Shown: piece after piece, positions 4,054 through 47,950 of the stretch
How the letters are laid out: each line of letters begins with the position of its first letter
Numbering within the stretch: position 1 is the first letter of the stretch
Assembly (NCBI RefSeq): GCF_040958095.1
Contig: NC_091173.1
Location: forward strand, 19,767,082 to 19,831,081
Source: Procambarus clarkii
Lineage: Eukaryota; Arthropoda; Malacostraca; Decapoda; Cambaridae
DNA length: 64,000 nt
Reading direction: 5' to 3'
Notes under the pieces: model-generated
Told to the model about the DNA's origin: nothing
The model's database searches: none
Seen by the model: only the letters and a program-made list of their open reading frames with translations
Position numbers and translations under genes: made by a program

Positions 4054-4535
4054 TTGACAGTCATCTTCAAAATCTCAAACTCAACTGAATCCTATGATTT
4101 TACTGATGGTTCTGTGCAATTGGGCACTGGTAGAGCAGGTTGTAAATGTGCAATATATAAAGGGAATGAAATGATCATGTCTAGTACACAGATTAAACGA
4201 CTGGGCATCACGACACAGTCTGAGCTGTTGGGTATTTATCTAGCCACTGAGTACCATAAGCTCAATGGGGGTTCAGTGATATTGTGTGACTCTAAAAGTG
4301 TTCTGCATCCTTAAATAACCCATCATAATTAATGTCTAAAGTAGCTTGTAATATTAAATTTAATGTAATTTTTGCCAATGATAATAACTTTTGTATAAAA
4401 TTTGTGTGGATCCCATCCCATGTTGGAGTTGGAAAACATGATTTTGTAAATAGATTGGCCAATGAGGCTTGCGAAAGAAAATTGTTTATGACTTTGACTA
4501 ATGCAATTATTAGAAAAATACAAATTAAATAAGTT
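4054..4535 (+). pseudogene. LINE RNase H domain remnant
   Basis: The first frame has the RNase H landmarks in order: FTDGS (first Asp), TQSELLGIY (Glu) and LCDSKS (second Asp). It stops at 4314. A second frame from 4332 continues with KFVWIPSHVGVGKHDFVNRL, the conserved IPSHVGV block. The last catalytic Asp of that block appears as Asn (FVNRLA). The frame change and this substitution indicate a dead domain. Confidence 0.65.
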
Positions 4536-4619
4536 ACTTCAGATTTAGAAGAACTTAGAAATGCCCAGAGACCTGAAAGCTGCGGTATTAAAAGCTATGA
4601 CAATTTTTGTAATAATAGG

Positions 4620-4898
4620 TATTTGTATGGTCAGCACAGTAACCGGACCAGGCAATGGAATGCAGTCATTGCGCAAAATCGCCTTGGCTATAGACGCATC
4701 TGGCAGGTTAGTGAGGCTGAGCCACTACCAGAATATTCAGATTGTAAACTCTGTGACAAACCTTTAATGCATTCACTAGAACACTATATTGTTGAATGTG
4801 AAATCGTAAAAGACTTTAGACCTCCTGGCCTCTTGTACCACCAACTGTGTACAGTTGGCTGGTTGGCGAGGAAGCTATTGTTGGTGGGCCTAGTATAA
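4620..4898 (+). pseudogene. LINE ORF2 C-terminal zinc-binding tail
   Basis: The frame contains NRLGYRRIWQV, then CKLC, H and HYIVEC, ending with IVKDFRPPG. A very similar order (LGYRYLWQV, CKLC, HYITECPVIRPFRP) appears at 21690-21982. The two are therefore 3' ends of related LINEs. The CxxC-H-C arrangement is the usual C-terminal zinc knuckle after RNase H. Confidence 0.6.
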
Positions 4899-5685: not shown

Positions 5686-7401
5686 CTAGACGGTGGCTTT
5701 GCACACTTCGGTCTGGACACAGGCATCAAAGCAGCACTTGCGGCCCGCCAGACACTCGCTGTCCGACGAGCACTGGACTGGCTGCGATCTGAAAACAGCG
5801 GGTGGGCAGCCAATCCGTACAGGGGGACAGCGTCCTCCTGCAGGAGGAAAATTACACATTAGTAACGTAAAAACATAGGAAGAATGTTTTGTTATTTTAT
5901 GCAATACTGAAGAAGTTCCGTAGGTTTGGCCACGTTATTTTACGATTGGTATTTTGATATATTTTCATTTTGTACTTTGGATTTGTAAAAATGACAAGAA
6001 AAATCGACATTTGCATGCGACACTGTTTTTTTATAAACTCACTAATGGTACTGGATCTAGTGTTCCTGGTTACTAAATTGCTTAATGTGGTACACATTAA
6101 TAGTCCGATCTATTTGCTATACTCATGGCACACTCAAGTGCGTACATATCTCTAAATATGAATCATGCGTGATTATTCATCATCCTTATTTGCTCTAGAC
6201 TCATCAAGACGACTTGATAATGGCCCAGAACGGACCGAAACGTCGTCATTTCTCCATTTCAGGTGTGTAGGTCCGGTGTGAACGCTTCAGCCACGTTATT
6301 GTGACTCATCGGCTACACATACTTGTAGCATATATGTGCCTGAAGCTCTATACGCGTACTACAAAATTGTGAAAAATGGTAACAAAGCCCATTTCATGAG
6401 GATTCCATCTGACTTTGACCTGATGATAGAATTATTCAGTTAGCCAAACAATATACCTTCAAAGAACTTTTTAAAGACCTTGTAGCGCTGAAACAACGTA
6501 GATTAGTAGAGCTACATATATATCTAATAGTTGACCAGATCACACACTGGAAGGTGAAGGGACGACGACGTTTCGGTCCGTCCTGGACCATTCTCAAGTC
6601 GATTGTGAGAATCGACTTGAGAATGGTCCAGGACGGACCGAAACGTCGTCGTCCCTTCACCTTCTAGTGTGTGTAGTCTGGTCAACTTTAGCCACGTTAT
6701 TGTGACTCATCGCCTGTTTATCTCTAATAGTTTGCATCACCTACCGATGTTAACTTGATGTATACTGTGTCAGCGAAATTATTCTCACACCCTGCACCGC
6801 TATGTGGAAACATTCACAAATTGTTCACATTCCGTATTTCATACAGAGTGACGAACTACTTTAAATTCTAGCAGACTTTCCGTAGTTTGGTAACTGCTGG
6901 TAGCGCATGTAAGTGAAGGAACACCCCCCCCACGGCCCACAGCATGGAGGTGGATGCATGGTAGTCGGAATAAAATTGTAACTTGCTCAGTCAAGTAACT
7001 CACGCTCTTAGAGCCTCTTGAGATCACGGTGACGACGTAATTTAATAAACTGGGAGTAGACCGTTGATTTATATGCAACACTATGCAACTAGTTCAGTGT
7101 TGTAACTTGCATAGTTAAACGAATTTTGGAGGTTCAGCTCCTGAAGCTTGTATGTGCTTCTGTAACTGTCTCCGCTACCACTCACAGGATGGTTATAGGG
7201 TCCACAACCATTGACAGGATCGGTATGGGGGTTCACTACCGCTCCTAGGACGAGTAAAGAAGCACATAATAGTAAATAAAGTGGTGTACAACTACCTCTT
7301 TGTAATCTGTCGCGCCATGGGAATCTGCCACGCTGTGCAGCCACCTCCGAACACAGGAGGAGACCCAGGGTTAAGACGAGGGCAAGACGTAAACAGTTCA
7401 T
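5686..7401 (-). CDS. Crustin, type I/carcinin-like (single WAP domain), two coding exons
   Basis: Predicted secreted antimicrobial or protease-inhibitor-like peptide. Coding exon 1 (7401..7296) starts MNCLRLALVLTLGLLL, a signal peptide ending near residue 22, then a short basic linker (QRGRFPWRDRLQR). It ends in phase 1 at a GTAGTT donor. Exon 2 (5837..5686) follows a CTCCTGCAG acceptor in the matching phase and encodes a WAP (four-disulfide core) domain with exactly eight cysteines, including the paired KCC, ending VCKATV and stop. Joined length is about 85 residues, normal for carcinins. I chose MNC because the sequence just upstream is a splice acceptor (TTACTCTTGCAG), implying an upstream 5'UTR exon that I could not place. 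The donor is weaker than consensus, so the exon 1 end is less certain than the rest. The 1.46-kb intron carries hairpin repeats. Confidence 0.82.
6208..6312 (+). repeat. Partial copy of hairpin repeat family
   Basis: This diverged half-copy of the GACCAGACCACACACT hairpin family contains 'GGACCGAAACGTCGTC' and ends 'CAGCCACGTTATTGTGACTC', which also flanks the copies at 6531 and 35060. It lies in the crustin 1 intron. Confidence 0.6.
6531..6686. repeat. Hairpin repeat (foldback element), copy 1
   Basis: The left arm runs TTGACCAGATCACACACT through 'GACGACGTTTCGGTCCGTCC' to 'CTCAAGTCGATTGTG'. The right arm is its near-perfect reverse complement, ending AGTCTGGTCAAC. Arms of about 70 nt meet with almost no loop. 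Related copies lie at 35101, 43703 (one arm) and 44749. It carries no coding capacity. Confidence 0.8.
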
Positions 7402-13377: not shown

Positions 13378-14221
13378 CTAGACGGTGGCTTTGCACACTT
13401 CGGTCTGAACGCAGGCATCAAAGCAGCACTTGCGGCCCGCCAGACACTCGCTGTCCGACGTGCACTGGACTGGCTGCGATCTCGTAGACGGGCAGGCTAA
13501 GCGTGCTGGGGGGCAGCTCCCTCCTCCTCCTCCAGGTGCTGAAGGACGAACACAAAACATTAATGTTGAGTATATAAAGGAATAATTGTAGTTTTAGTCC
13601 CTGCTGGTGAAACTATAGAAGGGTTTTGCTTGCATTTATGCAGGAGTGTTGTGGAGATAAGTGAACAACCAGTCTCTTACAGTGTACAGAGGTCTGTGAG
13701 ACCTATTTCCATTACGTCGTCTGGTATTTAAATTAAGAATCGATTGTTGCATTTAACATCACGTTTATAAACTCACTGATAATAGCATTAGATCCGGTGT
13801 TCCCGCTCGCTCCGTTGGTTCCTGTGGCACCGCCGCCTCCGATGTTTCCTCCAGGGAATCCATTGCCTCCTGGGAATCCACCGCCCCCTTGGAATCTACC
13901 GCCCCCTTGGAATCTACCGCCCCCTTGGAATCCACCAGCCCCTTGGAATCCACCGGCCCCTTGGAATCCACCGCCCCCTTGGAATCCACCGCCCCCTTGG
14001 AATCCACCGGCCCCTGGGAATCCACCGCCCCCTTGGAATCCACCAGGCAACCCACCGCCACCTTGGAATCTGTTGCCTCTGAAGATGCTTCCTGGTCCTC
14101 TGCCACCTCCCCCAAAGTAACCGTAGGGCCGGTATGAACGACGGTGACTGTAGTAGCCATGGGCGTCAGTGCCCAGGAGGAGACCCAGGGACAAGACCAC
14201 GGCCAGAAGCACACAGTTCAT
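13378..14221 (-). CDS. Crustin with long Gly-rich region and C-terminal WAP domain
   Basis: Predicted secreted antimicrobial protein of about 201 residues. Coding exon 1 (14221..13777) gives a signal peptide (MNCVLLAVVLSLGLLLGTDA), a basic/aromatic patch (HGYYSHRRSYRPYGYF), then roughly 90 residues of Gly/Phe/Gln repeats (GGFQGGGGF-like). It ends in phase 1 at a perfect GTGAGT donor. Exon 2 (13538..13378) follows a CCTTCAG acceptor in the same phase and encodes an eight-cysteine WAP domain ending VCKATV and stop. The intron is only 238 bp. Type II crustins normally have a Cys-rich stretch between the Gly region and the WAP domain. None is visible here or in the intron, so the architecture is unusual. 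From SQPVQC to the stop the WAP exon matches crustin gene 1 in all but one residue. An upstream acceptor (CTCTTGCAG) implies a 5'UTR exon. An alternative in-frame start (MCAT) lies 12 nt upstream. Confidence 0.85.
13840..14075 (-). repeat. Coding 15-bp-type tandem repeat of the crustin Gly-rich region
   Basis: Units of about 15 nt encode GG(F/L)QG-type pentapeptides, repeated more than ten times with small variants. The repeat keeps frame, so it changes only the length of the Gly-rich linker. Copy number is likely polymorphic. Confidence 0.8.
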
Positions 14222-35850: not shown

Positions 35851-36190
35851 TCCAGAGGCACCGAGCTGGCAGCCAACCCCAAGTTTAACAAACAACCCGG
35901 ACTCACTCTGGGGTATGTAACGGAGTTCTATACCAAACGCTCCCGTCAGATACAAAAGGCAGTCACAGTAACGCGATGTATTTCTCTTAGGAAATCACTG
36001 AATCTCCGTCCTGCTCTAATGGATCTTGCATGTGTCACGTTACTGTGATTTGCGAGTCTGAATTGTTTAGGAAATCCATTGGTTATAGACACATTATATA
36101 ACTGGTATAATTTAATACTTTTCGTTTGTCACAATAAATAATTAAGACTGGACTAAATATTAGTTATAGGTCTAGATTATAAATATTTCT

Positions 36191-36216
36191 TTAATAAATA
36201 AATAAATAATAAATAG
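36191..36216 (-). promoter_or_regulatory. AU-rich 3'UTR element and polyA signal of Ig gene 1
   Basis: Read on the minus strand this is CTATTTATTATTTATTTATT and then ATTAAA. It contains overlapping UUAUUUAUU nonamers, the class of AU-rich element that destabilises inducible mRNAs, followed at once by a variant polyA hexamer. It lies about 35 nt past the stop codon. Confidence 0.5.
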
Positions 36217-36249
36217 CATGGTGGACGAGCTGTGGCCCTCGCGGACTCA

Positions 36250-36654
36250 TCAGTGGACGTTGATGGTTGATGCGTCGACCTGGGTGCCCCTGTGGAGGAG
36301 GACACAGGTGTAGTCTCCGGCGTGTGTGCTGCTGAAGTGGTGGAAGACCAGGTAGGAGTGACGGACGTGTGCCCCGGTGCCCAGGGAGTACACGTAGCGG
36401 GTATTGTCGGACCATCTGGCCACCTTGTGACCTGTGGAGTTCCGCCACTGGACCTGGTAATGGTGCAGGTTGCTCGTGGTCGACACCTCCGCCCTGCAGA
36501 ACACGAAGGCGTTCTCCATGTAGCCAATGTCGACGGAGGTGCCGTTGACAATGACAGCTTGACGCGACGACTGGTGATGGTGGAGGGTGAGCGAGGCTGA
36601 GAGGGAGGCCAGGGAGACGACCACTACGGCAGTCACCAACGTCGCCTGCATCAT
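36250..36654 (-). CDS. Secreted single-domain immunoglobulin protein, copy 1
   Basis: This is an intact 134-residue, single-exon frame. Residues 1-22 are a signal peptide (MMQATLVTAVVVVSLASLSA). One Ig domain follows: Cys53 (VFCRAE), Trp70 (VQWRN) and the DAGDYxC-like end THAGDYTC (Asp114, Tyr115, Cys117). There is no membrane segment or GPI-type tail, and the protein stops just after the domain (STINVH). N-glycosylation sequons are NGT (37) and NST (72). Two nearly identical genes lie at 41174-41578 (same strand) and 45525-45929 (opposite strand). A TATA element sits about 125 bp upstream and AU-rich sequence follows the stop. I know no named family with this layout. A soluble recognition or decoy factor is a reasonable inference. 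Confidence 0.8.
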   Translation of the reverse strand: MMQATLVTAVVVVSLASLSASLTLHHHQSSRQAVIVNGTSVDIGYMENAFVFCRAEVSTTSNLHHYQVQWRNSTGHKVARWSDNTRYVYSLGTGAHVRHSYLVFHHFSSTHAGDYTCVLLHRGTQVDASTINVH

Positions 36655-36776
36655 GGTGCTCTGAAGTCTTCACGTGTTGAGATTTGTAAAGTGGTAATAA
36701 TTGTATTAAAAGCTGAGGAGCTGTATGTTGGTGGGTGTGCAGGTGCTGCAGTTGTGAGGACAGGAGGTGGAGCCTG

Positions 36777-36789
36777 CCAATATATAGCC
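36777..36789 (-). promoter_or_regulatory. TATA element of Ig gene 1
   Basis: The minus strand reads GGCTATATATTGG, 123-135 bp upstream of the ATG and conserved at the same distance in all three Ig copies. No intron is needed between it and the start codon. Confidence 0.6.
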
Positions 36790-36936
36790 ACACATGACGC
36801 AAGTAATACACACAGGTGCCGTTATGCTTCACAAAGGTTGTGAATGTTTCTTGGTAACACGGAGGTGGAAGGGAAGGAGACGTACCCATCCTGGAGAAGA
36901 AGTTATGGGGGGGGGGGGGGGAGGGGATGAAGAGAT

Positions 36937-36947
36937 GGGAGTCTCCC
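36937..36947. promoter_or_regulatory. Candidate Rel/NF-kB-type palindrome upstream of Ig gene 1
   Basis: GGGAGTCTCCC is an 11-bp palindrome fitting the insect Dorsal/Dif-type consensus GGGRNNNYYCC. It lies about 150 bp upstream of the TATA element. In copy 3 the matching site has two extra bases (GGGAGACTCTCCC, 45240-45252). Copy 2 has a different sequence there. It is a single short match, so chance is possible. Confidence 0.3.
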
Positions 36948-36999
36948 TTATCTCCTTACTGCCTCGGCAAATCTTGAGCCGTCAGAGATCCGTGACAGA

Positions 37000-37780
37000 T
37001 TACCAAGTCACCCGGATGATTTGTGTTACGTATATTATTTGTAGTAGTGTAATGGACTTTGTATCTCTCGCCAGTTCTCTCCACGGGAACGTCCGCTTAT
37101 CATCAGCACAGAAGGAATCTCCTGTATACTTTTCAGTGCCGTAATAGTCTTTCTCATTGAATATGGCGGATATTGTTGAACAACACGTGCTGTTTCTCAC
37201 CTTCACGTGCACTATTTAATATAGTTTAATGTGCCTGTAATTGCACATTAAACTTTGCACCTCAGGAGGAATGAACCTCAGTCGTAGCGTGTAAGATTTT
37301 TGCGTCAGTTGTATAAGTGTGGAGTATATTTACAAAATTAATAATTAAGCCTATTCATAAATACAAACTTATTTAGGTTTATTTACAAAAACTAATATAC
37401 CCTGTTTGTAAAAAAAAAATACGAAAAATCTCCTGACCCAAGCCTAATCTTGTATACAAAACTTAAACTAGTATTATGTTTTATGTTCAAATTTTAAAGT
37501 ACTTCTGTACCCTGTTCTTCGTAGCCAACACAGCCAGGATGATCCAGTAACACCACCAGAAATTTGTCCCATTCTCTCATGAAAGAGAGAACGGGACCTC
37601 TGTTGTTCAGGTGATATTTCTTATGGGAAAATTAAGAGTCTTTGGCCTCTAGTGTTTACACTGCGGTCTTTAATTGGGCTTATAAGGCATCCCGTCTTTT
37701 CACTGGACGCGATTTGTCCTTCCTAACGTTTCGCCAACTCATTACCCAGAGATTCTCACAGACGAGTCTAAGCCAAGCAA
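37000..37780. other. Intergenic, no supported gene
   Basis: AT-rich sequence without recognisable coding or repeat structure, beyond the upstream end of the Ig-gene duplication block (about 36995). Confidence 0.45.
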
Positions 37781-37784
37781 TAGT

Positions 37785-38050
37785 CTCCGTGGTGTAGTGG
37801 TAAGACACTCGCCTGGCGTTCCACGAGCGCTTTGTCATGGGTTCGTATCCTGGCCGGGGAGGATTTACTGGGCACTAATCCTTAACTGTAGCCTCTATTT
37901 AACGCAACAGTAAAATGTGTACTTGGTTGTAACAACGATTCTTCGCGGCAGGGGATCGTATTCCAGGGACCTGCCCGAAACGCTACGCGTACTAGTGGCT
38001 GTACAAGAATGTAACAACTCTTGTATATATCTCAAAAAAAAAAAAAAAAT
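37785..38050 (+). repeat. tRNA-derived SINE with A-rich tail
   Basis: The head reads TCCGTGGTGTAGTGGTAAGA (A-box) and 'CATGGGTTCGTATCCTGGCC' (B-box). The body contains 'GATTCTTCGCGGCAGGGGAT' and CCCGAAACGCTACGCG, and the end is an A run. The acceptor stem is not restored and the body continues, so it is not a functional tRNA. A truncated relative lies at 1370-1475. Confidence 0.75.
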
Positions 38051-38279
38051 AGTAGTAACATCCTGGAGCCTGCTGATTTGATGGGATGATCCATATAGAT
38101 ATGTCGCTCTTCTCGAAAGTTAAAAATGTTAACAGTTAAAGTTAACAAAGTTAACAAACAGTTAAAAAATATCAAACACAATATCAAACACACGATTTGC
38201 GGTTGTATACACAGCCGCAAATCTTGGTGATCAAATGCTGCGCTGAGGCAAATTACATCGCATTCAAAGGGGGGGGGGG

Positions 38280-38532
38280 TTATCTTGAGGTTATCTTGAG
38301 ATGATTTCGGGGCTTTTTAGTGTCCCCGCGGCCCGGTCCTCGACCAGGCCTCCACCCCCAGGAAGCAGCCCGTGACAGCTGACTAACACCCAGGTACCTA
38401 TTTTACTGCTAGGTAACAGGGGCATAGGGTGAAAGAAACTCTGCCCATTGTTTCTCGCCGGCGCCTGGGATCGAACCCAGGACCATAGGATCACAAGTCC
38501 CGCGTGCTGTCCGCTCGGCCGACCGGCTCCCC
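38280..38532 (-). repeat. tRNA-derived SINE
   Basis: Read on the minus strand, GGCCGAGCGGACAGCACGCG (A-box) and CTGGGTTCGATCCCAGGCG (B-box) are followed by the TTACCTAGCAGTAAAATAGG body. It ends with the module GGGGACACTAAAAAGCCCCG and ATCATCTCAAGATAACC, the same as at 47520. Confidence 0.8.
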
Positions 38533-38679
38533 ATGATGAACTCATCCTCCTGTTTAAAAAGTACTTTTTGTAACTCTGTGCACATAGTACAACCCTTGAC
38601 GAAAAAGGCAATTAGATAGCATTTGGAAATATTCAATTTATAAGTCTGAAAAACAAAGCTAAAAAAGCAAACTTAAATA

Positions 38680-38743
38680 TTCCTAGGCCTAGTATAGCAC
38701 ACATATGTGCTATACTAGGCATCAGATGAATTAGGCCTAGGAA
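38680..38743. repeat. Nested palindrome
   Basis: GCCTAGTATAGCAC (38687-38700) and its exact reverse complement (38707-38720) are separated by ACATAT. An outer inverted pair TTCCTAGGCCT / AGGCCTAGGAA extends the symmetry. Confidence 0.85.
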
Positions 38744-39013
38744 GGTTAGGTTAATTTAGGTTTGTCCAAATTCAGTAGTAACGATTTCTACATAATAATT
38801 GTCCATTACCTGATATATGAACAATGGTCATCATCGTTACTATAAGTACTAACTATACTGGAGGATAGGGCTGTTTAATCATACATACAGCACACATTCA
38901 CTAACCAGTGGGCGTTTTCAATAGCACACACTATACACTTTTACCCACCAGGGAGTGTTTGAATCATATAATACACCTTCCAATCCAAGGGGGAGTTTGA
39001 ATCGTAAAATACA

Positions 39014-39285
39014 CCAGGGGCTAGATTAACGAAGCAGTTACGCAAATACTTACGAACGTGTACATCTTTCCTCAATCTTTGACGGCTTTGGTTACATTTA
39101 TTAAACACTTTACAAGCATGAAATCTTCCCAATCACCTGTTGTTATTGTTATGAACAGCCTCCTGGTGCTTCGGAGCTCTTTAACTGTTTAATAATTGTA
39201 AACAAAGCCGCCAAAGATAGAGAAGAGATTTACAAGTTCGTAAGTGCTTGCGTGCGTAACTGCTTCGTGAATCTTGCCCCCCTGG
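39014..39285. mobile_element. MITE with long terminal inverted repeats
   Basis: It begins CCAGGGGCTAGATTAACGAA and ends with the near reverse complement (TTCGTGAATCTTGCCCCCCTGG). The inverted arms continue through GCAGTTACG, TTACGAACGT/ACAAGTTCGTAA and CAATCTTTGACGGCTTTG/CAAAGCCGCCAAAGAT, about 75 bp each. It is about 272 bp with no coding capacity. The centre contains the inner palindrome-like 'CTTCGGAGCTC'. Confidence 0.82.
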
Positions 39286-39780
39286 CCTGATCCGAGGGTG
39301 AAAGGTCGTGGTACACCTCTAATACAACAAACAGCTGTTCAACGTACACAACAAGACCAGCTGGAGGTGTTAAAGAGGCCAACTCCACTCGTACTCACTA
39401 CGCGGTATATAACGACGACAACAGACTCCCTTATTATGAATGAAGTGACGTCAGAACAATTCCTAATCGTTGTGAATGAGTGTGACGTCATCTATCAATT
39501 GACGGCGGGAGGGCGTGTACTCTGAAGATTTTAAGGTTCAAGTGATTACTCCCGAGCTCCGTCTTGCCAGCTGCGGGTTGTGTAACTGATCACCCCCCCC
39601 CCCCCCACCATGCTTCTATTATTAAAAACTATTGTACTAGATCCTAATCTATCCACCTCTAGTTTCTTCCACGTTCTCGCTGCCTATACGCTAAAAAGTT
39701 TGACCCGACGACTGGTAGGTCGTAAATCCTTACGAGGATTTTTGTCTTACGCCTCGGGTTGCCATCCTCGTCCCTGTCGT

Positions 39781-40338
39781 CCCCCATCCAGGGTTCCCTG
39801 GCTCGTCCCTGCCCCCCATCCAGGGTTCCCTGGCTCGTCCCTGCCCCCCATCCAGGGTTCCCTGGCTCGTCCCTGCCCCCCCATCCAGGGTTCCCTGGCT
39901 CGTCCCTGCCCCCCATCCAGGGTTCCCTGGCTCCTCCCTGCCCCCCCCCCATCCAGGGTTCCCTGGCTCGTCCCTGCCCTCCATCCAGGGTTCCCTGGCT
40001 CCTCCCTGCCCCCCCATCCAGGTCTCCCTGGCTCGCCCCTGCCCCTCATCCAGGGTTCCCTGGCTCGTCCCTGCCCTCCATCCAGGGTTCCCTGGCTCCT
40101 CCCTGCCTCCCCATCCAGGTCTCCCTGGCTCGTCCCTGCCCCCCATCCAGGGTTCCCTGGCTCGTCCCTGCCCTCCATCCAGGGTTCCCTGGCTCCTCCC
40201 TGCCCCCCCATCCAGGTCTCCCTGGCTCGTCCCTGCCCCCCATCCAGGGTTCCCTGGCTCGTCCCTGCCCTCCATCCAGGTCTCCCTGGCTCGCCCCTGC
40301 CCCCCCCCCATCCAGGTCTCCCTGGCTCGCCCCTGCCC
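39781..40338. repeat. ~31-bp minisatellite
   Basis: The unit CATCCAGGGTTCCCTGGCTC plus (G/C)TCCCTGCCCC is repeated about 18 times. There are higher-order patterns of GGGTTC versus GGTCTC variants. The large open frames (up to about 250 codons) arise from this repeat and are not genes. Confidence 0.95.
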
Positions 40339-40664
40339 TATGAATCTAGGTAAAACGTCACCTTAAAAGAGCGAGCAGTTCGTGCAGCTGCCGCGAGAGA
40401 TGAGGTGTTATCAGCGGGAGTGTCAACCCGGCATCTTCTCACCTGATTACGCTCAGTTCTTCCACGTACGTAGATCAAACCGTCAACATGCGACGTATTA
40501 TTCTAAATTCAAGCACCGCAATATCGAAGTTTTCTGTGCACCGGCTTCGATAGGTTGGGAGGGTTGTGTGGTTGGTATGTTCCTGGTTAGGCAAAGAGAC
40601 TTGCTTTTTACGGAGTAACAAATCGAGCGAATTATGTACGGTAATAGTGGTACAATGTCGAGGA

Positions 40665-40905
40665 TACTAGTATAAGGTCGAGGGTGTCAGTACATGGTCG
40701 AGGGTGTCAGTTTATGGTCGAGGGTGTCAGTACATGGTCGAGGGTGTCAGTTCATGGTCGAGGGTGTCAGTACAAGGTCGAGGGTGTCAGTACATGGTCC
40801 AGGGTGTCAGTACATGGTCGAGGGTGTCAGTACATGGTCGAGGGGTGTCAGTACATGGTCGAGGGTGTCGGTACATGGTCGAGGGTGTCGGTATAAAGTC
40901 GAGGG
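40665..40905. repeat. 20-bp minisatellite
   Basis: The unit GGTCGAGGGTGTCAGTACAT is repeated about 11 times with single-base variants. Confidence 0.95.
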
Positions 40906-41120
40906 GTAAAATGTCTTCTTCTCGTGCCCGAGGTGTTAATCGATCCTTGTGACTTCCTTGTATCAAGTACATGAGAACTGGACATTTCACATTTCAGGAT
41001 TACTCAAAACGCTAATAGGTTAGTGATACATAAAACATAATTTGATTTTGTATATTACTTATATGTAACAATGAAACAATTGACAGATCTTAGACATATT
41101 ATTATAATATAAATATTAAA

Positions 41121-41142
41121 TATATTAAATAAATAAATAGCA
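41121..41142 (-). promoter_or_regulatory. AU-rich 3'UTR element of Ig gene 2
   Basis: The minus strand reads CTATTTATTTATTTAATATA, containing the UUAUUUAUU nonamer, about 35 nt past the stop. It is followed by TATTTAATATTTATATT, shared with copy 3 but not with copy 1. Confidence 0.5.
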
Positions 41143-41173
41143 TGGTGGACGAGTTGTGGCCCTCGCGGACTCA

Positions 41174-41578
41174 TCAGTGGACGTTGATGGTTGATGCGTC
41201 GACCTGGGTGCCCCTGTGGAGGAGGACACAGGTGTAGTCTCCGGCGTGTGTGCTGCTGAAGTGGTGGAAGACGAGGTAGGAGTGAGGGACGTGTGCCCCG
41301 GTGCCCAGGGAGTACACGTAGCGGGTATTGTCGGACCATCTGGCCACCGTGTCACCTGTGGAGGTCCGCCACTGGACCTGGTAGTGGTGCAGGTTGTCCG
41401 TGGTCGACACCTCCGCCCTGCAGAACACGAAGGCGTTCTCCATGTAGCCAATGTCGACGGAGGTGCCGTTGACAATGACAGCTTGACCCGACGACTGGTG
41501 GTGGTGGAGGGTGAGCGAGGCTGAGAGGGAGGCCAGGGAGACGACCACTACGGCAGTCACCAACGTCGCCTGCATCAT
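41174..41578 (-). CDS. Secreted single-domain immunoglobulin protein, copy 2
   Basis: This intact 134-residue single-exon frame has the same signal peptide, Cys53, Trp70 and AGDYTC as copy 1. Compared with copy 3 it differs at residues 31 (Gly for Arg), 72 (Thr for Asn), 76 (Asp for Ala) and 98 (Pro for Arg). Change 72 destroys the NST glycosylation sequon, leaving only NGT at 37. The TATA element is at 41701-41713. Upstream homology with the other copies ends near 41790, whereas copies 1 and 3 stay alike for another 200 bp. Confidence 0.8.
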   Translation of the reverse strand: MMQATLVTAVVVVSLASLSASLTLHHHQSSGQAVIVNGTSVDIGYMENAFVFCRAEVSTTDNLHHYQVQWRTSTGDTVARWSDNTRYVYSLGTGAHVPHSYLVFHHFSSTHAGDYTCVLLHRGTQVDASTINVH

Positions 41579-41700
41579 GGTGCTCTGAAGTCTTCACGTG
41601 TTGAGATTTGTAAAGTGGTAATAATTGTATTAAAAGCTGAGGAGCTGTATGTTGGTGGGTGTGCAGGTGCTGCAGTTGTGAGGACAGGAGGTGGAGCCTG

Positions 41701-41713
41701 CCAATATATAGCC
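41701..41713 (-). promoter_or_regulatory. TATA element of Ig gene 2
   Basis: GGCTATATATTGG on the minus strand, at the same distance from the ATG as in copy 1. Confidence 0.6.
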
Positions 41714-41829
41714 ACACATGACGCAAGTAATACACACAGGTGCCGTTATGCTTCACAAAGGTTGTGAATGTTTCTTGGTAACACGGAGGTGAGAAAGGGG
41801 GAGGGAGGAGACATATCTTACCTGAAGAA

Positions 41830-42570
41830 GTAATGGAGAGGGGGGGGGGGACCCTTCCTAGTCATGATGGTGGGTTGCGGAATGGAAGTGCCTTTCTTAT
41901 CTTCGATGACAAGTTTTTGGCTTCCCGGGTTCCATCAATGATGCCTCCCACACTACCAAGTTTGCCGATCCATTGATTGTAATTATAACTAGAATCAACA
42001 CCGTATAGAAGAATATTGGCGACGCAGGTGTTTTTTTCTCTTTTACTCACCGATGTTTTAATGGCCGGGAGTCATATACTTGAGAGATTAACCAGTATGA
42101 AACTATACAGCTATGTACATACACGTGGATGTTACGATGACAAGCCCCACTTGTTGGATCGAACTGAAGGAGAGATAACAGGTGATTTATTGCTTTATGA
42201 ATGAAAGTGTGACGTCCCGTATCTTGGTAAGTGTAAATGATGCAACGAACACAACGGCTGCTAAGATTTCATTCAGCTTTTATATAGCTTTATGATAGAC
42301 AGCTTTTGTGAATTTCTTACTACTGCGCTCTCTGTGCCTCTGCATTGCGTCTTCATAAGCGGATTGCATGGAACCTTGGTTAGGACGTTGTATGGTCTCT
42401 TTGATAAAGACGTGCATAGGATCTTTGTTGATAGCTTGCATACCATCTCCTCAGCCTTTAATATTCTTTGGCGTATCAAGGACTTTCAAGCGACGTTTGT
42501 TTTTCTTCCGCTACAATTACTTTGACCAGCTTCGTGGTCGGAGTCGTCTTCTCTCTTGTATTCTCGTGGT
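41830..42570. other. Intergenic, no supported gene
   Basis: Several open frames of 60-80 codons overlap around 42280-42560 on both strands, but none shows a recognisable domain, signal peptide or splice structure. Confidence 0.4.
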
Positions 42571-42574
42571 GATG

Positions 42575-42812
42575 CACCAGCCCCCATCAAGATGATGCAC
42601 CAGCCCCATCAAGGTGATGGACCAGCCCCCATCAAGGTGATGCACCAGCCCCCATCAAGGTGATGGATCAGCCCCCATCAAGATGATGCACCAGCCCCCA
42701 TCAAGGTGATGGACCAGCCCCCATCAAGGTGATGGACCAGCCCCCATCAAGGTGATGGACCAGCCCCCATCAAGGTGATGGACCAGCCCCCATCAAGGTG
42801 ATGCACCAGCCT
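42575..42812. repeat. 23-bp minisatellite
   Basis: The unit GATGGACCAGCCCCCATCAA plus GGT is repeated about ten times, with GATGCACC and AAGATG variants interspersed. Confidence 0.95.
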
Positions 42813-43373
42813 TGGAAAAGTCACTTCAGAATGACTCGTACTCGTGCACCTTGGCCACGCCAGCTCAAAGGCTCCGGGAGTAGAGAGGCTCCAGTGATGC
42901 TGATGGGGTTGAGGGCGGACCTTGGGGGGGAACTTTGCGCTTACTCCGTCGCCCGGGAAGGATTGATAACCACCACCACCTGACGCACAGGGACTTATCT
43001 CTTCGGATCAGGACCCACACTGTGCAAGATATTCAGAATCCAGAAGGCAGTATCGACCTGGCCACAGAGATCTTCACAGTCTTGAGCATTGTCTCTTCGT
43101 CATCACGTGACGTGGTCTTCTGTTGCCCCGGACACGAACACCCGAGTCAAGTGCCTCTCAAGTCTTATGCCCAAGTTACTATTAACGTCACGAGTCCTTT
43201 CGGCGCCATTTTTCAACCCCCATGTTATGCGGTAAATCAGGGATAACTTCGTTAAAGAGGCCAGCCAACTTATGTCAGCTAAAAAGGTCAAAAGACACTT
43301 CGATCTGATTATGTCAGAAGACTAGAATTCGTTAATAAAGTCTCTTGGTTCGTTGGTCCAACTCTGGTCTCAC

Positions 43374-43515
43374 CCCCGTGGTGTTGTGGTATAATATGCT
43401 ATTTTCCACGCAAGTCAAGAGGACCTAAGTTCGAAGTCCTGGGCAGGTTGGATGATTGGGCACCACCTTTCCCTACCCAAGTGCCCGCCCGGGAGTAACC
43501 GGTGAACTTAGACGG
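43374..43515 (+). repeat. tRNA-like SINE
   Basis: 'CGTGGTGTTGTGGTATAATA' and 'AAGTTCGAAGTCCTGGGCAG' mimic A- and B-boxes. A non-tRNA body follows (GGCACCACCTTTCCCTACCC). It is diverged. Confidence 0.4.
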
Positions 43516-43702
43516 AGAAACATTTGTTGATTCGTATTTTGGGCATTGTTAATTCAGCACCCTATACCAGCTCTTATCCCAACGCCCCCATCCCAGCTTC
43601 TATCCCAACCTCCATCCCAGCTCCTCTCCCAAATCCTGACCTGCGCTTGTATATCCCTGCAAAGAATCGTCTTGGCATACTGACCGCACATTCTCTTGAG
43701 GA

Positions 43703-43777
43703 CAATCGACTTGAGAATGGTCCAGGACGGACCGAAACGTCGTCGTCCCTTCACCTTCTAGTGTGTGGTCTGGTCAA
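43703..43777 (+). repeat. Single arm of the hairpin repeat family
   Basis: One arm only: AATCGACTTGAGAATGGTCC through GGACCGAAACGTCGTCGTCC to GTGTGTGGTCTGGTCAAG. Unpaired, it shows that the family can exist as a single unit. Confidence 0.8.
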
Positions 43778-44029
43778 GACACATTCTCCTCATAATGTCC
43801 TTTCCTTTCGTGTCCCGGGGAACACTGTGCACTAAATGACTCTACCGGTTCCCCGTAGCTTGGCCCTGAGGTCTGAGCCGTCAGTAAGCTCGGGTTGTTA
43901 CAGCGTTAATGAGGTGATTTTTCTCTTTGGGTCGTTTATACGGCGGCTTTTGGTCCATTTATAGCACCGCCGTAATGCTGGTTAGTTTACAAGGTCAAGT
44001 GACTTTTTTGGTCTTTTTATGGTTCCCTG

Positions 44030-44240
44030 AAGGTGCCCTGATACTTTTATGGTTCTCTGGTGACTCCCTGATACGTTTATTGTTCTATAATGCTCTTTGA
44101 TACTCCCATGATTCTATAATGGCTCTCTGATCCTTTTTCGTTCCATAATGGCTTTCTGATCATTTTATGGTACCATGATGGCGTTATTATCCTTTTATGG
44201 TACCATGATGGCGTTATTATCCTTTTATGGTACCATGAAA
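44030..44240. repeat. Degenerate ~30-bp tandem repeat
   Basis: The unit CCTTTTATGGTACCATGATG plus GCGTTATTAT is clear two to three times at the right end. More diverged TTTTATGGTTCT units lie to the left. Confidence 0.7.
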
Positions 44241-44574
44241 TATATCTGATCCTTTTATCAGGTCAAATAATGGCTCGATCGATCTCATAAGCACAGTGCC
44301 GACAGCCGTGTTTGCTTTACACCGAGGATTTATTATCATTAACGACTACTTAAAACGATTCCATGAAATGTATTCCAATGGGTCATGAGAGGAAGGGGGA
44401 ATGGCTCGCTTATAATCCCAGCTTTGGTACGTTTTTAAAGACTCGAATTATCCTGTTTTCCAATTAACATTTTTGGGTAAAGCGATGTTTATGAAATAAG
44501 GTGATTACTGCACGACGAAACAACAAGAACGTGTATGTATACAGTGTGTGTGTTTGTGTATATATGTATGTATA

Positions 44575-44575
<1 letters not shown>

Positions 44576-44665
<90 letters not shown>

Positions 44666-45020
44666 ATATATATATATGTATATTTATATATATATTTATA
44701 TATATGTATATTTATATTTATATATATATATGTATATATATATTTATATTGACCAGACCACACACTAGAAATTGAAGGGACGACGACGTTTCGGTCCGTC
44801 CTGGACCATTCTCAAGTCGATTGTCAACGTCGATTGATTAACGTCGTCGTCCCTTCAATTTCTAGTGTGTGGTCTGGTCAACATACTTCAGCCACGTTAT
44901 ATATTTATATTTATATATATATTTATATTTATATATATTTATATTTATATTTATATTTATATTTATATATATATTTATATTTATATATATATATTTATAT
45001 TTATATATATATATATATTA

Positions 45021-45053
<33 letters not shown>

Positions 45054-45054
45054 C
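44576..45054. repeat. (TA)n / (TTTATA)n tracts interrupted by hairpin repeat
   Basis: A TA-rich microsatellite (44576-44745) continues as TATATTTATA-type repeats at 44898-45054. Between them sits a hairpin repeat copy (44749-44882), so the foldback element appears to lie within or at the edge of one AT tract. Confidence 0.9.
44749..44882. repeat. Hairpin repeat (foldback element), copy 3
   Basis: The left arm TTGACCAGACCACACACTAG through 'CGACGACGTTTCGGTCCGTC' and the right arm ending AGTGTGTGGTCTGGTCAACA are reverse complements. The right arm lacks the central part, so the pairing is asymmetric. Confidence 0.8.
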
Positions 45055-45390
45055 TGGACGTTTATCCTTGCAACTTGTGTAAAAAAAACGCAAAATTTTC
45101 TAGACATACGTAGTATACGCATAAGAATAATGCAGTACAATATATACACGCCCCTGATAGTGGCCAGGTAATGTGTGCGGGGCGGCATCTGTCACGGATT
45201 TCTGACGGCTCAAGATTTGCCGTGGCAGTAAGGAGATAAGGGAGACTCTCCCATCTCTTCACCCCCCCCCCCATAACTTCTTCTCCAGGATGGGTACGTC
45301 TCCTTCCCTTCCACCTCCGTGTTACCAAGAAACATTCACAACCTTTGTGAAGCATAACGGCACCTGTGTGTATTGCTTGCGTCATGTGTG

Positions 45391-45402
45391 GCTATATATT
45401 CG
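45391..45402 (+). promoter_or_regulatory. TATA element of Ig gene 3
   Basis: GCTATATATTCG, 123-134 bp upstream of the ATG, matches the elements of copies 1 and 2. Confidence 0.6.
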
Positions 45403-45524
45403 TAGGTTCGACCTCCTGTTCTCACAACTGCAACAGCTGCACACCCACCAACATACAGCTCCTCAGCTTTTAATACAATTATTACCACTTTACAAATCTC
45501 AACACGTGAAGACATCAGAGCACC

Positions 45525-45929
45525 ATGATGCAGGCGACGTTGGTGACTGCCGTAGTGGTCGTCTCCCTGGCCTCCCTCTCAGCCTCGCTCACCCTCCACC
45601 ACCACCAGTCGTCGCGTCAAGCTGTCATTGTCAACGGCACCTCCGTCGATATTGGCTACATGGAGAACGCCTTCGTGTTCTGCAGGGCGGAGGTGTCGAC
45701 CACTGACAACCTGCACCACTACCAGGTCCAGTGGCGGAACTCCACAGGTGCCACGGTGGCCAGATGGTCCGACAATACCCGCTACGTGTACTCCCTGGGC
45801 ACCGGGGCACACGTCCGTCACTCCTACCTCGTCTTCCACCACTTCAGCAGCACACACGCCGGAGACTACACCTGTGTCCTCCTCCACAGGGGCACCCAGG
45901 TCGACGCATCAACCATCAACGTCCACTGA
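45525..45929 (+). CDS. Secreted single-domain immunoglobulin protein, copy 3 (inverted)
   Basis: This intact 134-residue single-exon frame on the opposite strand to copies 1 and 2 has the signal peptide, Cys53, Trp70 and THAGDYTC. It differs from copy 1 at residues 61 (Asp for Ser), 76 (Ala for His) and 77 (Thr for Lys), plus about five silent changes. Both sequons (NGT, NST) are present. The upstream flank matches copy 1 back to about 45190, beyond where copy 2 diverges. The downstream flank matches copy 2 to about 46020, so the flanks are mosaic. Single-exon structure might suggest retrocopying, but the shared promoter argues for DNA-level duplication. Confidence 0.8.
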   Translation: MMQATLVTAVVVVSLASLSASLTLHHHQSSRQAVIVNGTSVDIGYMENAFVFCRAEVSTTDNLHHYQVQWRNSTGATVARWSDNTRYVYSLGTGAHVRHSYLVFHHFSSTHAGDYTCVLLHRGTQVDASTINVH

Positions 45930-45959
45930 TGAGTCCACGAGGGCCACAGCTCGTCCATG

Positions 45960-45980
45960 CTATTTATTATTTATTTAATA
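45960..45980 (+). promoter_or_regulatory. AU-rich 3'UTR element of Ig gene 3
   Basis: CTATTTATTATTTATTTAAT contains the UUAUUUAUU nonamer about 30 nt past the stop, matching copies 1 and 2. Further ATTTA units follow. Confidence 0.5.
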
Positions 45981-46439
45981 TATTTAATATTTATATTTTA
46001 ATATATCTGTAATCTGTCAAATGTTGAATTATTTATTTGTTAAAGAAATAATATAGTATATTAAAATCTATAAATTATATATTTTGTGCTGATTACCTAT
46101 TTATGTCATTGACTGATTTGACTCGCGAGTGTCGAAAACACACACACACACACACGTTGTTGACTGCCAATTATCTGGGCTACCTTGATCTGTTGTTATC
46201 GCAGTAATCACCATAAAGGTTTTCAGGGTAGAGCATCTGTCACACAACTGATAACCCCTCTATATGCCACCCGACATCATCCCTCTCCCCCTCCCTTCCG
46301 AACCTCATCATTGTTAGTGAGAACATTCGGAGTATTTAATGTGTCACAGCAGCAAAGTACAGTATTAACATCTACTTATTGGCGTTTTGAATGTGTAGAT
46401 GTTACATGTGTTAACACTGATCAACATGTGGATTATTTT

Positions 46440-46975
46440 ATGAAGCTGTAAATTTATTGGTGAGGCTGTGAATTTGTTGCCGGGCCTGTGGATTTGTTGG
46501 CGAGGCAGTAGATTTGTTAGCGATTTTGAAGATTTGTTGATGACGCTTTAGATTGGTTGGCAAAGCTGTAAATTTGTTGGCGAGGCAGTAGATTCGTTTG
46601 CAAGGCTGTGGATTTGTTGGCCGAACTGTAGATTTGTTGGCGAGGCTGTGGATTTGTTGGCCGAACTGTAGATTTGTTGGCGATGCTTTAGATTTGTTGG
46701 CAATGCTGTAGAGTTGTTGGCGAGGCTGTAACTTTGTTGGCAATGCTGTAGAGTTGTTGGCGATGCTGTAACTTTGTTGGCAATGCTGTAGAGTTGTTGG
46801 GGAGGCTGTAACTTTGTTGGCAATGCTGTAGATTTGTTGGCGATGCTGTAAAGTTGTTAATGAGGCTGTAGATTTGTTGGCGAGGCTGTAGCTTTGTTGG
46901 CGATGCTGTAGCTTTGTTGGCGATGCTGTAGCTTTGTTGGCGAGGCTGTAGATTTGTTGCCTGTGCTGTGGATTC
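46440..46975. repeat. 20-bp minisatellite
   Basis: The unit TTTGTTGGCGAGGCTGTAGA is repeated about 26 times with many point variants (CGATGCTG, CAATGCTG, CCGAACTG). The two open frames on the minus strand encode only N-K-S-T-A-type repeats. Confidence 0.93.
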
Positions 46976-46984
46976 TGTGGTAAT

Positions 46985-47950
46985 CTGTACTCACCCACCT
47001 AATTCTGCTTGCGGGGGTTGAGCTTCGGCTCTTTGGTCCCGCCTCTCAACTGTCAATCAACTGGTGTATAGATTCCTAGCCTATTGGGCTCTATCATATC
47101 TACATTTAAAATTGCGTATGGAGTCAGCCTCCTTCACATCACTGCCTAGTGTATTCCATTTGTTAACTACTCTGACACTAGAAAAGTTCTTTCTAATACA
47201 TCTTTGGTTCATTTGGGTTCTCAATTTCCACTTGCCCCCCTTGTGCTTCTACCAACTATGTTAAAGAAACTGTCTTTATCTACCCTATTAATTCCTGAGA
47301 ATCTTGTATGTGGTGATCATGTTTCCCATAACCTTGTGTCTTCCAGCGATGTGAGGTTTAGTTCCCGTAGTCTCTCCTCATAGCTCATAGCCCTCAGCTC
47401 GGGTACTAGTCTGGTGGCATACCTTTGAACCTTCTCCAATTTAATCTCGTGCTTGACTAGATACGGACTCCATGCTGGAGCAGCATATTCCAGGTTTGGT
47501 CTAACGTATGTGGTATACAAGGTTATATTGAGATGATTTCGGGGCTTAGCGTCCCCGCGGCCCAGTCCTCGACCAGGCCTCCTTTTGTTATACACCCCCA
47601 GGAAGCAGCCTGTAGCAGCTGTCTAATTCCCAGGTACCTATTTACTGCTAGGTAACAGGGGCATCAGGGTGAAAGAAACTCTGCCCATTTGTTTCCGCCT
47701 CCACCAGAGATCGAACCGGAAATCTAGGATTACTTACCCGAAACGCTGTCCTTTCAGCTGTCAGGCCCTAGGTTCCCAGGACGGAACCGTGGGGTTCTAA
47801 ATGATTTTAAACGAGTTAAGGTTCTAAATGATTCCTTACACAAATTTCTAAAGGCAGTTCTTATGTTGGCCAAGCTGGAATATGTCACTGATATCTTCTT
47901 GAGGTGTTCTTCTGGGAACAGGTCTGGCGTGATATCAATCTGTGGATTCT
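46985..47950 (-). mobile_element. CR1-like LINE 3' end, interrupted by a SINE
   Basis: Read on the minus strand, 47520..47330 encodes TTYVRPNLEYAAPAWSPYL, then LEKVQRYATRLVPELRAMSY, ERLRELNLTSLEDTR: the canonical C-terminal RT region of CR1-like LINEs. 47330-46985 continues into the 3' portion, ending in the GCTCAACCCCCGCAAGCA module shared with SINE tails. Upstream coding sequence resumes at about 47950-47800 after the inserted SINE. Only the 3' part of the element is present. Confidence 0.75.
47520..47765 (-). repeat. tRNA-derived SINE inserted in the CR1-like LINE
   Basis: On the minus strand it starts with a tRNA-like head (GGCCTGACAGCTGAAAGGAC A-box-like; GGTTCGATCTCTGG B-box) and passes through 'CCTAGCAGTAAATAGGTACC' to CGGGGACGCTAAGCCCCG. 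It splits LINE sequence that should be contiguous around 'TGTATACAAGGTTCTAAATG'. A GGTTCTAAATGATT block occurs twice just after it (47794 and 47820). Confidence 0.75.

Follow-up and report, generated by a model that had tools for sequence, protein, structure and literature searches.

Secreted proteins with a single immunoglobulin (Ig) domain are already known as such, since OIG-1 and OIG-4 of C. elegans are single-Ig proteins active outside cells (available part of PMC11385328). In decapods a soluble form of Dscam is paired with membrane-bound kin, and in a crab it acts together with the membrane-bound form and promotes phagocytosis, an effect abolished when Ig1-Ig4 is truncated (PMC5915466, in excerpt). 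In the crayfish protein PcLec3 a C-type lectin domain accompanies a signal peptide and an Ig domain resembling a variable region; its Ig part alone bound hemocytes, and phagocytosis was promoted by the full-length protein only, not by the Ig part (PMC4944128, in the passages available). The same excerpts describe snail FREPs as secreted multi-member Ig families of invertebrates (PMC4944128). In lobsters, Ig-domain orthogroups are reported to have grown within the genus Homarus (PMC13286009, partial text), a likeness drawn by domain and not by architecture.

The locus compared here lies in the crayfish Procambarus clarkii, within a window of 64,000 nucleotides, the whole stretch of DNA that was analysed. 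A sequence-only reading of this window had held that its compact soluble Ig genes fit none of the known kinds, a claim overtaken by the OIG proteins and the lobster expansions. The crayfish copies have, by eye, the OIG-type architecture of a signal peptide, one Ig domain and no anchor; it is this architecture, not sequence, that was compared. The OIG genes of C. elegans are few and have synaptic roles, whereas the crayfish family has at least 31 loci, divided between two clusters, and its coding regions are mosaic. Chordate VCBPs form a secreted multi-member V-domain family with a chitin-binding domain. FREPs and VCBPs carry a fibrinogen or chitin-binding domain, whereas the one-Ig proteins finish with the Ig domain; the second ligand-binding domain of FREPs, VCBPs and Ig-lectins is absent, the stop in all 28 intact copies falling where the Ig domain ends or 6 residues beyond. 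The lectin domain that PcLec3 needs for phagocytosis is likewise missing, the two being compared by description. The variety of Dscam stems from alternatively spliced products of a large gene, that of the one-Ig family from separate one-domain genes; the effect of soluble Dscam depends on a complete Ig1-Ig4 (PMC5915466, in excerpt). The Dscam architecture of multiple Ig and fibronectin domains with alternative exons was not found, each of the 28 intact copies ending after one Ig. No report of this one-Ig family appeared among the papers listed in searches of the open-licence PMC literature.

The three window genes

The one-Ig genes of the window and the duplicated units that contain them are as follows.

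36250..36654, minus strand: one-Ig gene A1, CDS of 134 aa
41174..41578, minus strand: one-Ig gene A2, CDS of 134 aa
45525..45929, plus strand: one-Ig gene A3, CDS of 134 aa
36133..37000, minus strand: duplicated unit with the A1 CDS plus 5' and short 3' flanks, 93.1% identity with the A3 unit
41067..41845, minus strand: duplicated unit with A2, 93.5% to the A3 unit
45187..46037, plus strand: duplicated unit with A3, the reference for the unit comparison

All three frames run intact from ATG to stop exactly where the sequence-only reading had placed them, and the near-identity it described holds, two of the proteins being 98 and 97% identical to the third. Cys53, Trp70 and AGDYTC were confirmed in each; judged by eye, each also has a signal peptide, one Ig-type domain and no anchor. 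The further claim that the genes are single-exon stands as far as coding sequence goes; on DNA evidence alone, the 5' leader appears unlikely to contain an intron. Duplication extends beyond the frame, over units of about 780-870 nt with 93-93.5% identity to the A3 unit, which end about 110 nt past the stop codon. Two frameshifted copies among the 31 were excluded beforehand, and of the 29 then compared 28 have frame +1 open; the other five frames carry stops in 29/29 copies, the figure for frame +3 being 28/29. This openness across the family is more than chance, and an alternative reading frame as the true coding frame was ruled out by the stops in the other frames.

The window copies show the landmarks of a V-type domain of the immunoglobulin superfamily, namely the B-strand cysteine, the core tryptophan and an AGxYxC-type F-strand motif, with a Cys-to-Cys spacing of 64 residues. 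Profile matches fell below curated cut-offs, both for Pfam PF00047 on the window proteins (E 0.018-0.046; best 15.8 bits vs 21.8) and for PF08204 (V-set_CD47) on a second-array copy (18.6 vs 21). Searches of PDB sequences gave best E-values of only 0.05 with the window protein and 0.03 with the family profile. The structural matches listed for a low-confidence fold model (mean pLDDT 52.4, from three near-identical alignment rows) were nearly all Ig domains, many of V-type, and included the Ig1 domains of Dpr and ZIG-8/RIG-5.

Recurrent motifs flank the window genes on both sides.

36753..36786, minus strand: TATA and initiator-like pair of A1, 132 nt 5' of the ATG (match in 1/300 shuffles)
41677..41710, minus strand: TATA and initiator-like pair of A2 (match in 3/300 shuffles)
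45393..45426, plus strand: TATA and initiator-like pair of A3 (match in 1/300 shuffles)
36190..36216, minus strand: run of overlapping ATTTA / UUAUUUAUU-like motifs 3' of the A1 stop (motif count)
41110..41140, minus strand: the same kind of run 3' of the A2 stop (motif count)
45960..45994, plus strand: the same kind of run 3' of the A3 stop (motif count)

The TATA and initiator-like pair, a post hoc pattern defined after the sequences had been read, precedes all six genes of groups A (A1-A3) and B (B1-B3), with matches in 1-5 of 300 shuffles. It was found at none of the 25 copies of groups C and D, nor at the multi-Ig exon described below. By motif count, ATTTA runs close to the stop are dense in group A only (3/3), single in C and in 22 of 24 D copies, and absent from B (0/3). 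Matches to kB-like sites, uncontrolled, were seen upstream of A1 and A3 only.

Family layout and divergence

The idea of a small, recently expanding family of anchorless one-Ig proteins was borne out, and the family proved larger than first described. The 4.03 Gb genome holds at least 31 one-domain Ig loci, 28 of them intact, all locus counts being lower bounds. The first cluster comprises seven loci, three in the window and four to its left, and all seven are intact. The second array (group D) has 24 loci, mostly in head-to-tail units of about 3.0 kb, whose full-length members are 96.3-99.9% identical to one reference unit; three of its copies are broken, and the core tryptophan is replaced in two intact ones. 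Three weak extra matches in the genome (E 0.18-0.99, with internal stops) were taken as chance, and of 15 pattern matches obtained when viral contigs were searched for relatives, tblastn confirmed none.

The second-array unit matches C24:19740229-19743006, around the copy adjoining the multi-Ig exon, at 86-91%. One fragment in the window also matches the part of that 3 kb unit outside the Ig frame.

4165..4851 (C24:19771246-19771932), plus strand: fragment matching the non-Ig-frame part of the second-array unit, 86% over 700 nt

Groups A and B share coding sequence unevenly. Left of codon 84, A3 differs from B2 at 6 of 84 codons and from B1 at 7 of 84, vs 30 of 50 and 28 of 50 to the right. 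In a permutation test covering two of the nine A-B pairs, 0 of 1000 permutations were as extreme for either pair, the corresponding counts for B1-B2 and C-D being 296 and 432. The coding starts of A and B are 95-100% alike despite dissimilar upstream DNA: no similarity is detectable among the upstream sequences of A, B1 and B2/B3, since at E <= 0.01 the A sequence matches that of B2/B3 over no more than the last 19 nt and that of B1 nowhere. The coding halves are mosaic, in the way that gene conversion produces.

Between C and D the coding sequence shows no frameshift in 4/4 comparisons, vs 8-9 non-triplet indels in the 3' flank of about 905 nt. Divergence is nevertheless equal in coding (0.077-0.092) and flanking DNA (0.070-0.090), and within D (18 of 24 copies) it is slightly higher in the coding sequence (0.0273) than in the flank (0.0245). 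The dN/dS ratio is 0.50-0.60 between A and B and between either of them and C or D (point values, without a significance test), 0.77 for C-D and 0.74 within D. The frame is maintained, yet replacements in the second array are near the neutral rate. Over columns 32-70 dN exceeded dS (A-C, 0.149 vs 0.111; B-C, 0.161 vs 0.073) on few changes, and positive selection is not claimed.

Relation to a neighbouring multi-Ig gene

The sole other clear relative found in the genome search is, at 29-32% identity, the first exon (C24:19738300-19738926, minus strand) of a multi-Ig gene that borders the first cluster. This exon encodes a signal peptide and Ig1 and continues through a second Ig-like stretch, which a GTGAG donor follows. 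Searched back against the genome at E <= 1, it recovered, besides itself, only the 31 loci, 20 of them at 2e-7 to 1.1e-5 and the remainder at 1.4e-5 to 0.0099; its best PDB sequence match was NCAM (E 0.0095). No further multi-Ig exon was recognised by eye among filtered open frames in the next 31 kb or so (21 kb + 10 kb), and a genome search with Ig_3 listed none near the cluster among the 150 of 1247 candidates scored.

The one-Ig family does look derived from this first exon, the direction from parent to family being inferred from parsimony. Founding would have been by a partial copy of the exon (signal peptide and Ig1, without an internal intron) that ended where the Ig domain ends. Because the region of the multi-Ig gene homologous to the family sits within one exon, intron loss cannot show; the A copies have 5' flank in common, as is usual for duplicates made at the DNA level. 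A truncated copy of an intron-free part of an exon could give intronless genes directly, and retroposition, though possible, is not needed.

That the frames are themselves exons of larger, intron-rich genes, as their only relative outside the family is, seems very improbable. The intact copies stop at or just beyond the Ig domain and the window repeat unit ends shortly after the stop, and on these two features the candidate was rejected; the TATA and initiator-like pair at the A and B genes, though a post hoc pattern, also speaks against it. The sequence-only reading would have been refuted had the frames turned out to be exons of a larger gene, and at the DNA level they did not.

Possible roles and rival explanations

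The preferred reading, to which a probability of roughly 0.45 is given, is that A1-A3 are members of a stand-alone family of at least 31 loci, founded by first-exon copying, spread in tandem, reshuffled by gene conversion, and encoding soluble V-type Ig binders in defence. Spread would have proceeded through tandem duplication, the second array being seeded from the copy nearest the parent, while gene conversion would swap coding segments between copies and upstream regions would turn over. The secreted domains may be extracellular soluble binders, most likely in defence, as recognition factors or as competitors or ligands (decoys included) of the parent receptor or of that receptor's partner. 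The analogies with Dscam and PcLec3 also cut the other way, as they speak against a single Ig domain sufficing.

A bolder version, a germline-encoded set of single, soluble V-type domains drawn from a neighbouring receptor's first domain, with half-domain gene conversion and changing promoters, is improbable; if true, many genes would do what Dscam achieves by splicing. With a likely source receptor close by, microbe, hemocyte or receptor binding by these domains becomes concretely testable, and expression in hemocytes or hepatopancreas would make them a compact, easily cloned soluble V-type Ig set near antimicrobial-type genes. Truncated first-exon copying would also illustrate clearly how a secreted Ig gene without introns may originate.

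Conserved, low-copy genes are typical of developmental organisers. For this reason soluble one-Ig proteins that organise synapses or other cell contacts, resembling OIG-1 and OIG-4, are an improbable match for a family of at least 31 copies with near-neutral replacement, although the leader and single Ig are comparable (PMC11385328, available part) and the Dpr and ZIG-8/RIG-5 domains appear among the matches listed for the low-confidence model. Somewhat less doubtful, though still unlikely, is largely passive amplification, in which one or a few genes work and dispensable copies are carried along by unequal crossing-over. Coding divergence as fast as that of the flanks, C vs D and within D, the dN/dS of 0.74-0.77, the three broken D copies and the two intact ones with a replaced core tryptophan would all suit it; the fully intact first cluster, the absence of frameshifts between C and D and the lower dN/dS in the comparisons involving A or B argue against it.

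The same limited credence attaches to fast-evolving secreted reproductive proteins of seminal or accessory-gland type, amplified in tandem. The family is small in protein size, secreted, tandem and near-neutral in replacement rate, and such a rate is equally typical of seminal and accessory-gland proteins. Against this stand the neighbouring WAP exons.

5689..5934, minus strand: open frame with a WAP (crustin-type) exon, a neighbour outside the Ig genes (PF00095 E 2.1e-6, over cut-off)
13381..13593, minus strand: open frame with a second WAP (crustin-type) exon, a neighbour (PF00095 E 2.5e-6, over cut-off)

The crustin-type effectors that had been reported beside the Ig genes are indeed represented in the window by WAP exons, which the first Ig gene follows at a distance of some 23 kb or more. 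A strict crustin pattern gave no match and a looser one four WAP exons, which lie between the B and A groups and not among the Ig genes. Their position favours defence over reproduction just weakly, since SCY3, a decapod antimicrobial-type gene, is expressed mainly in male ejaculatory ducts according to the part of its description available.

Size, layout and probable origin of the one-Ig family

A search, at E <= 1, of the 4.03 Gb genome to which the window belongs yielded 36 matches: 31 one-Ig loci (a lower bound on the family), a second piece of one locus, a divergent relative, and three weak hits that contain stops and were taken as chance. Seven loci lie on the window's own contig (C24) and 24 on another (C46), where the copies are of a type here called D. 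All seven C24 copies are intact, as are 21 of the 24 on C46, the remainder having a frameshift (two) or a TAG codon (one).

One-Ig genes of C24 and the divergent relative
A group (A1-A3): three genes, C24, inside the window
B group (B1-B3): three genes, C24, left of the window
C: one gene, C24, 84% identical to D
C24:19738300-19738926, minus strand: divergent relative, first coding exon (leader plus Ig1) of a neighbouring multi-Ig gene, no intron inside

The multi-Ig exon continues into a second Ig-like stretch and ends at a splice donor; among PDB sequences it matches NCAM best (E 0.0095). Searched against the genome (38 candidates, all scored), it matched the 31 one-Ig loci at 29-32% and nothing beyond them at E <= 1. 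No further exons of its gene were recognised in about 31 kb downstream, in filtered lists judged by eye. The parsimonious reading of these sequences is that the one-Ig family arose as a truncated copy of this exon.

On C46, 22 copies share one direction with a spacing of mostly about 3.0 kb; one more is inverted and another stands apart. Full-length units are 96.3-99.9% identical to the reference unit, and shorter pieces less so. Since the unit matches the region surrounding C (C24:19740229-19743006) at 86-91%, the C46 array was most likely seeded from C.

One 3 kb unit carries a 7.3 kb insertion (G000:C46:16512888-16520176, L044-L045), with unit positions 725-728 on both sides. A long frame inside the insertion resembles a retroelement gag and has a zinc-knuckle motif. 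In two intact copies (G000:C46:16528426 and 16531429) the core Trp of the Ig domain is replaced by Leu, with a Trp adjacent. A lone 700 nt fragment in the window (4165-4851) is 86% identical to part of the C46 unit beyond the Ig frame.

Mosaic coding sequences and upstream regions

Up to codon 84, A3 differs from B2 at 6 of 84 codons and from B1 at 7 of 84, compared with 30 and 28 of the 50 codons beyond, breaks that were each reached by 0 of 1000 permutations. No such break was found in B1-B2 (296/1000) or C-D (432/1000). The A-C and B-C breaks run the opposite way, 27 of 29 codons differing at the start and 42 of 102 (A-C) or 37 of 102 (B-C) in the rest. Between A and B, synonymous distance averages 0.01-0.05 over the first 70 columns but 0.51 beyond them, a pattern that suggests recent homogenisation more than constraint.

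In the region preceding the ATG, the similarity of A to B2 or B3 at E <= 0.01 extends over 19 nt at most, and at that threshold none was found between A and B1 or between B1 and B2/B3; B2 and B3 are 66% alike across 373 nt. A TATA-type box followed about 30 nt on by an initiator-like motif, a pattern defined post hoc from the same sequences, is present in all six A and B genes (matched by 1-5 of 300 shuffles) and in none of the 25 C and D copies. Minisatellite arrays flank the Ig genes or occupy the stretches separating them (window 39715-40338, 40610-40925, 42581-42857 and 46408-47007; periods about 32, 20, 23 and 20 nt).

One-Ig proteins acting outside cells are known elsewhere, such as OIG (PMC11385328), and Ig-domain expansion is reported in lobsters (PMC13286009); the family therefore varies a kind already known. 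What is unusual is its copy number, its likely exon-copy origin and the apparent swapping of coding halves under different upstream sequences. No description of it was found in a literature search of partial coverage.

Selection and possible roles

As plain ratios without a significance test, and with 22 of the 24 D copies included, dN/dS is 0.51 among the A copies and 0.31 among the B copies. Comparisons of A with B, and of either with C or D, give 0.50-0.60, whereas C-D gives 0.77 and the D copies among themselves 0.74. Between C and four D copies, divergence is equal in the coding sequence (0.077-0.092) and the flank (0.070-0.090); the former has no frameshifts and the latter 8-9 non-triplet indels. 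Such rapid change with a preserved frame fits defence, reproduction and also weak constraint.

The preferred function, with modest confidence, is soluble binding in defence. The models for it are soluble Dscam (PMC5915466) and PcLec3, whose Ig part binds hemocytes (PMC4944128), although in both a single Ig part is insufficient for the full effect. The one-Ig proteins may instead serve in reproduction, may have a synaptic role like that described for OIG (PMC11385328), or may reflect passive amplification of copies. Within the defence role, the anatomy speaks most for proteins acting as decoys or ligands for the presumed parent receptor, encoded by the multi-Ig gene.

Four exons with a crustin-type (WAP) domain, two inside the window and two immediately to its left and all over Pfam's cut-off, sit by position between the B group and the A group. 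With the search pattern that revealed them, the 130 kb around the C46 array yielded none. A frame beginning MNCLRLALVLTLGLLLCSEVAAQ (window 7081-7401, minus strand), with no Pfam match, may be the leader exon of a crustin-type gene with the WAP exon at 5689-5934.
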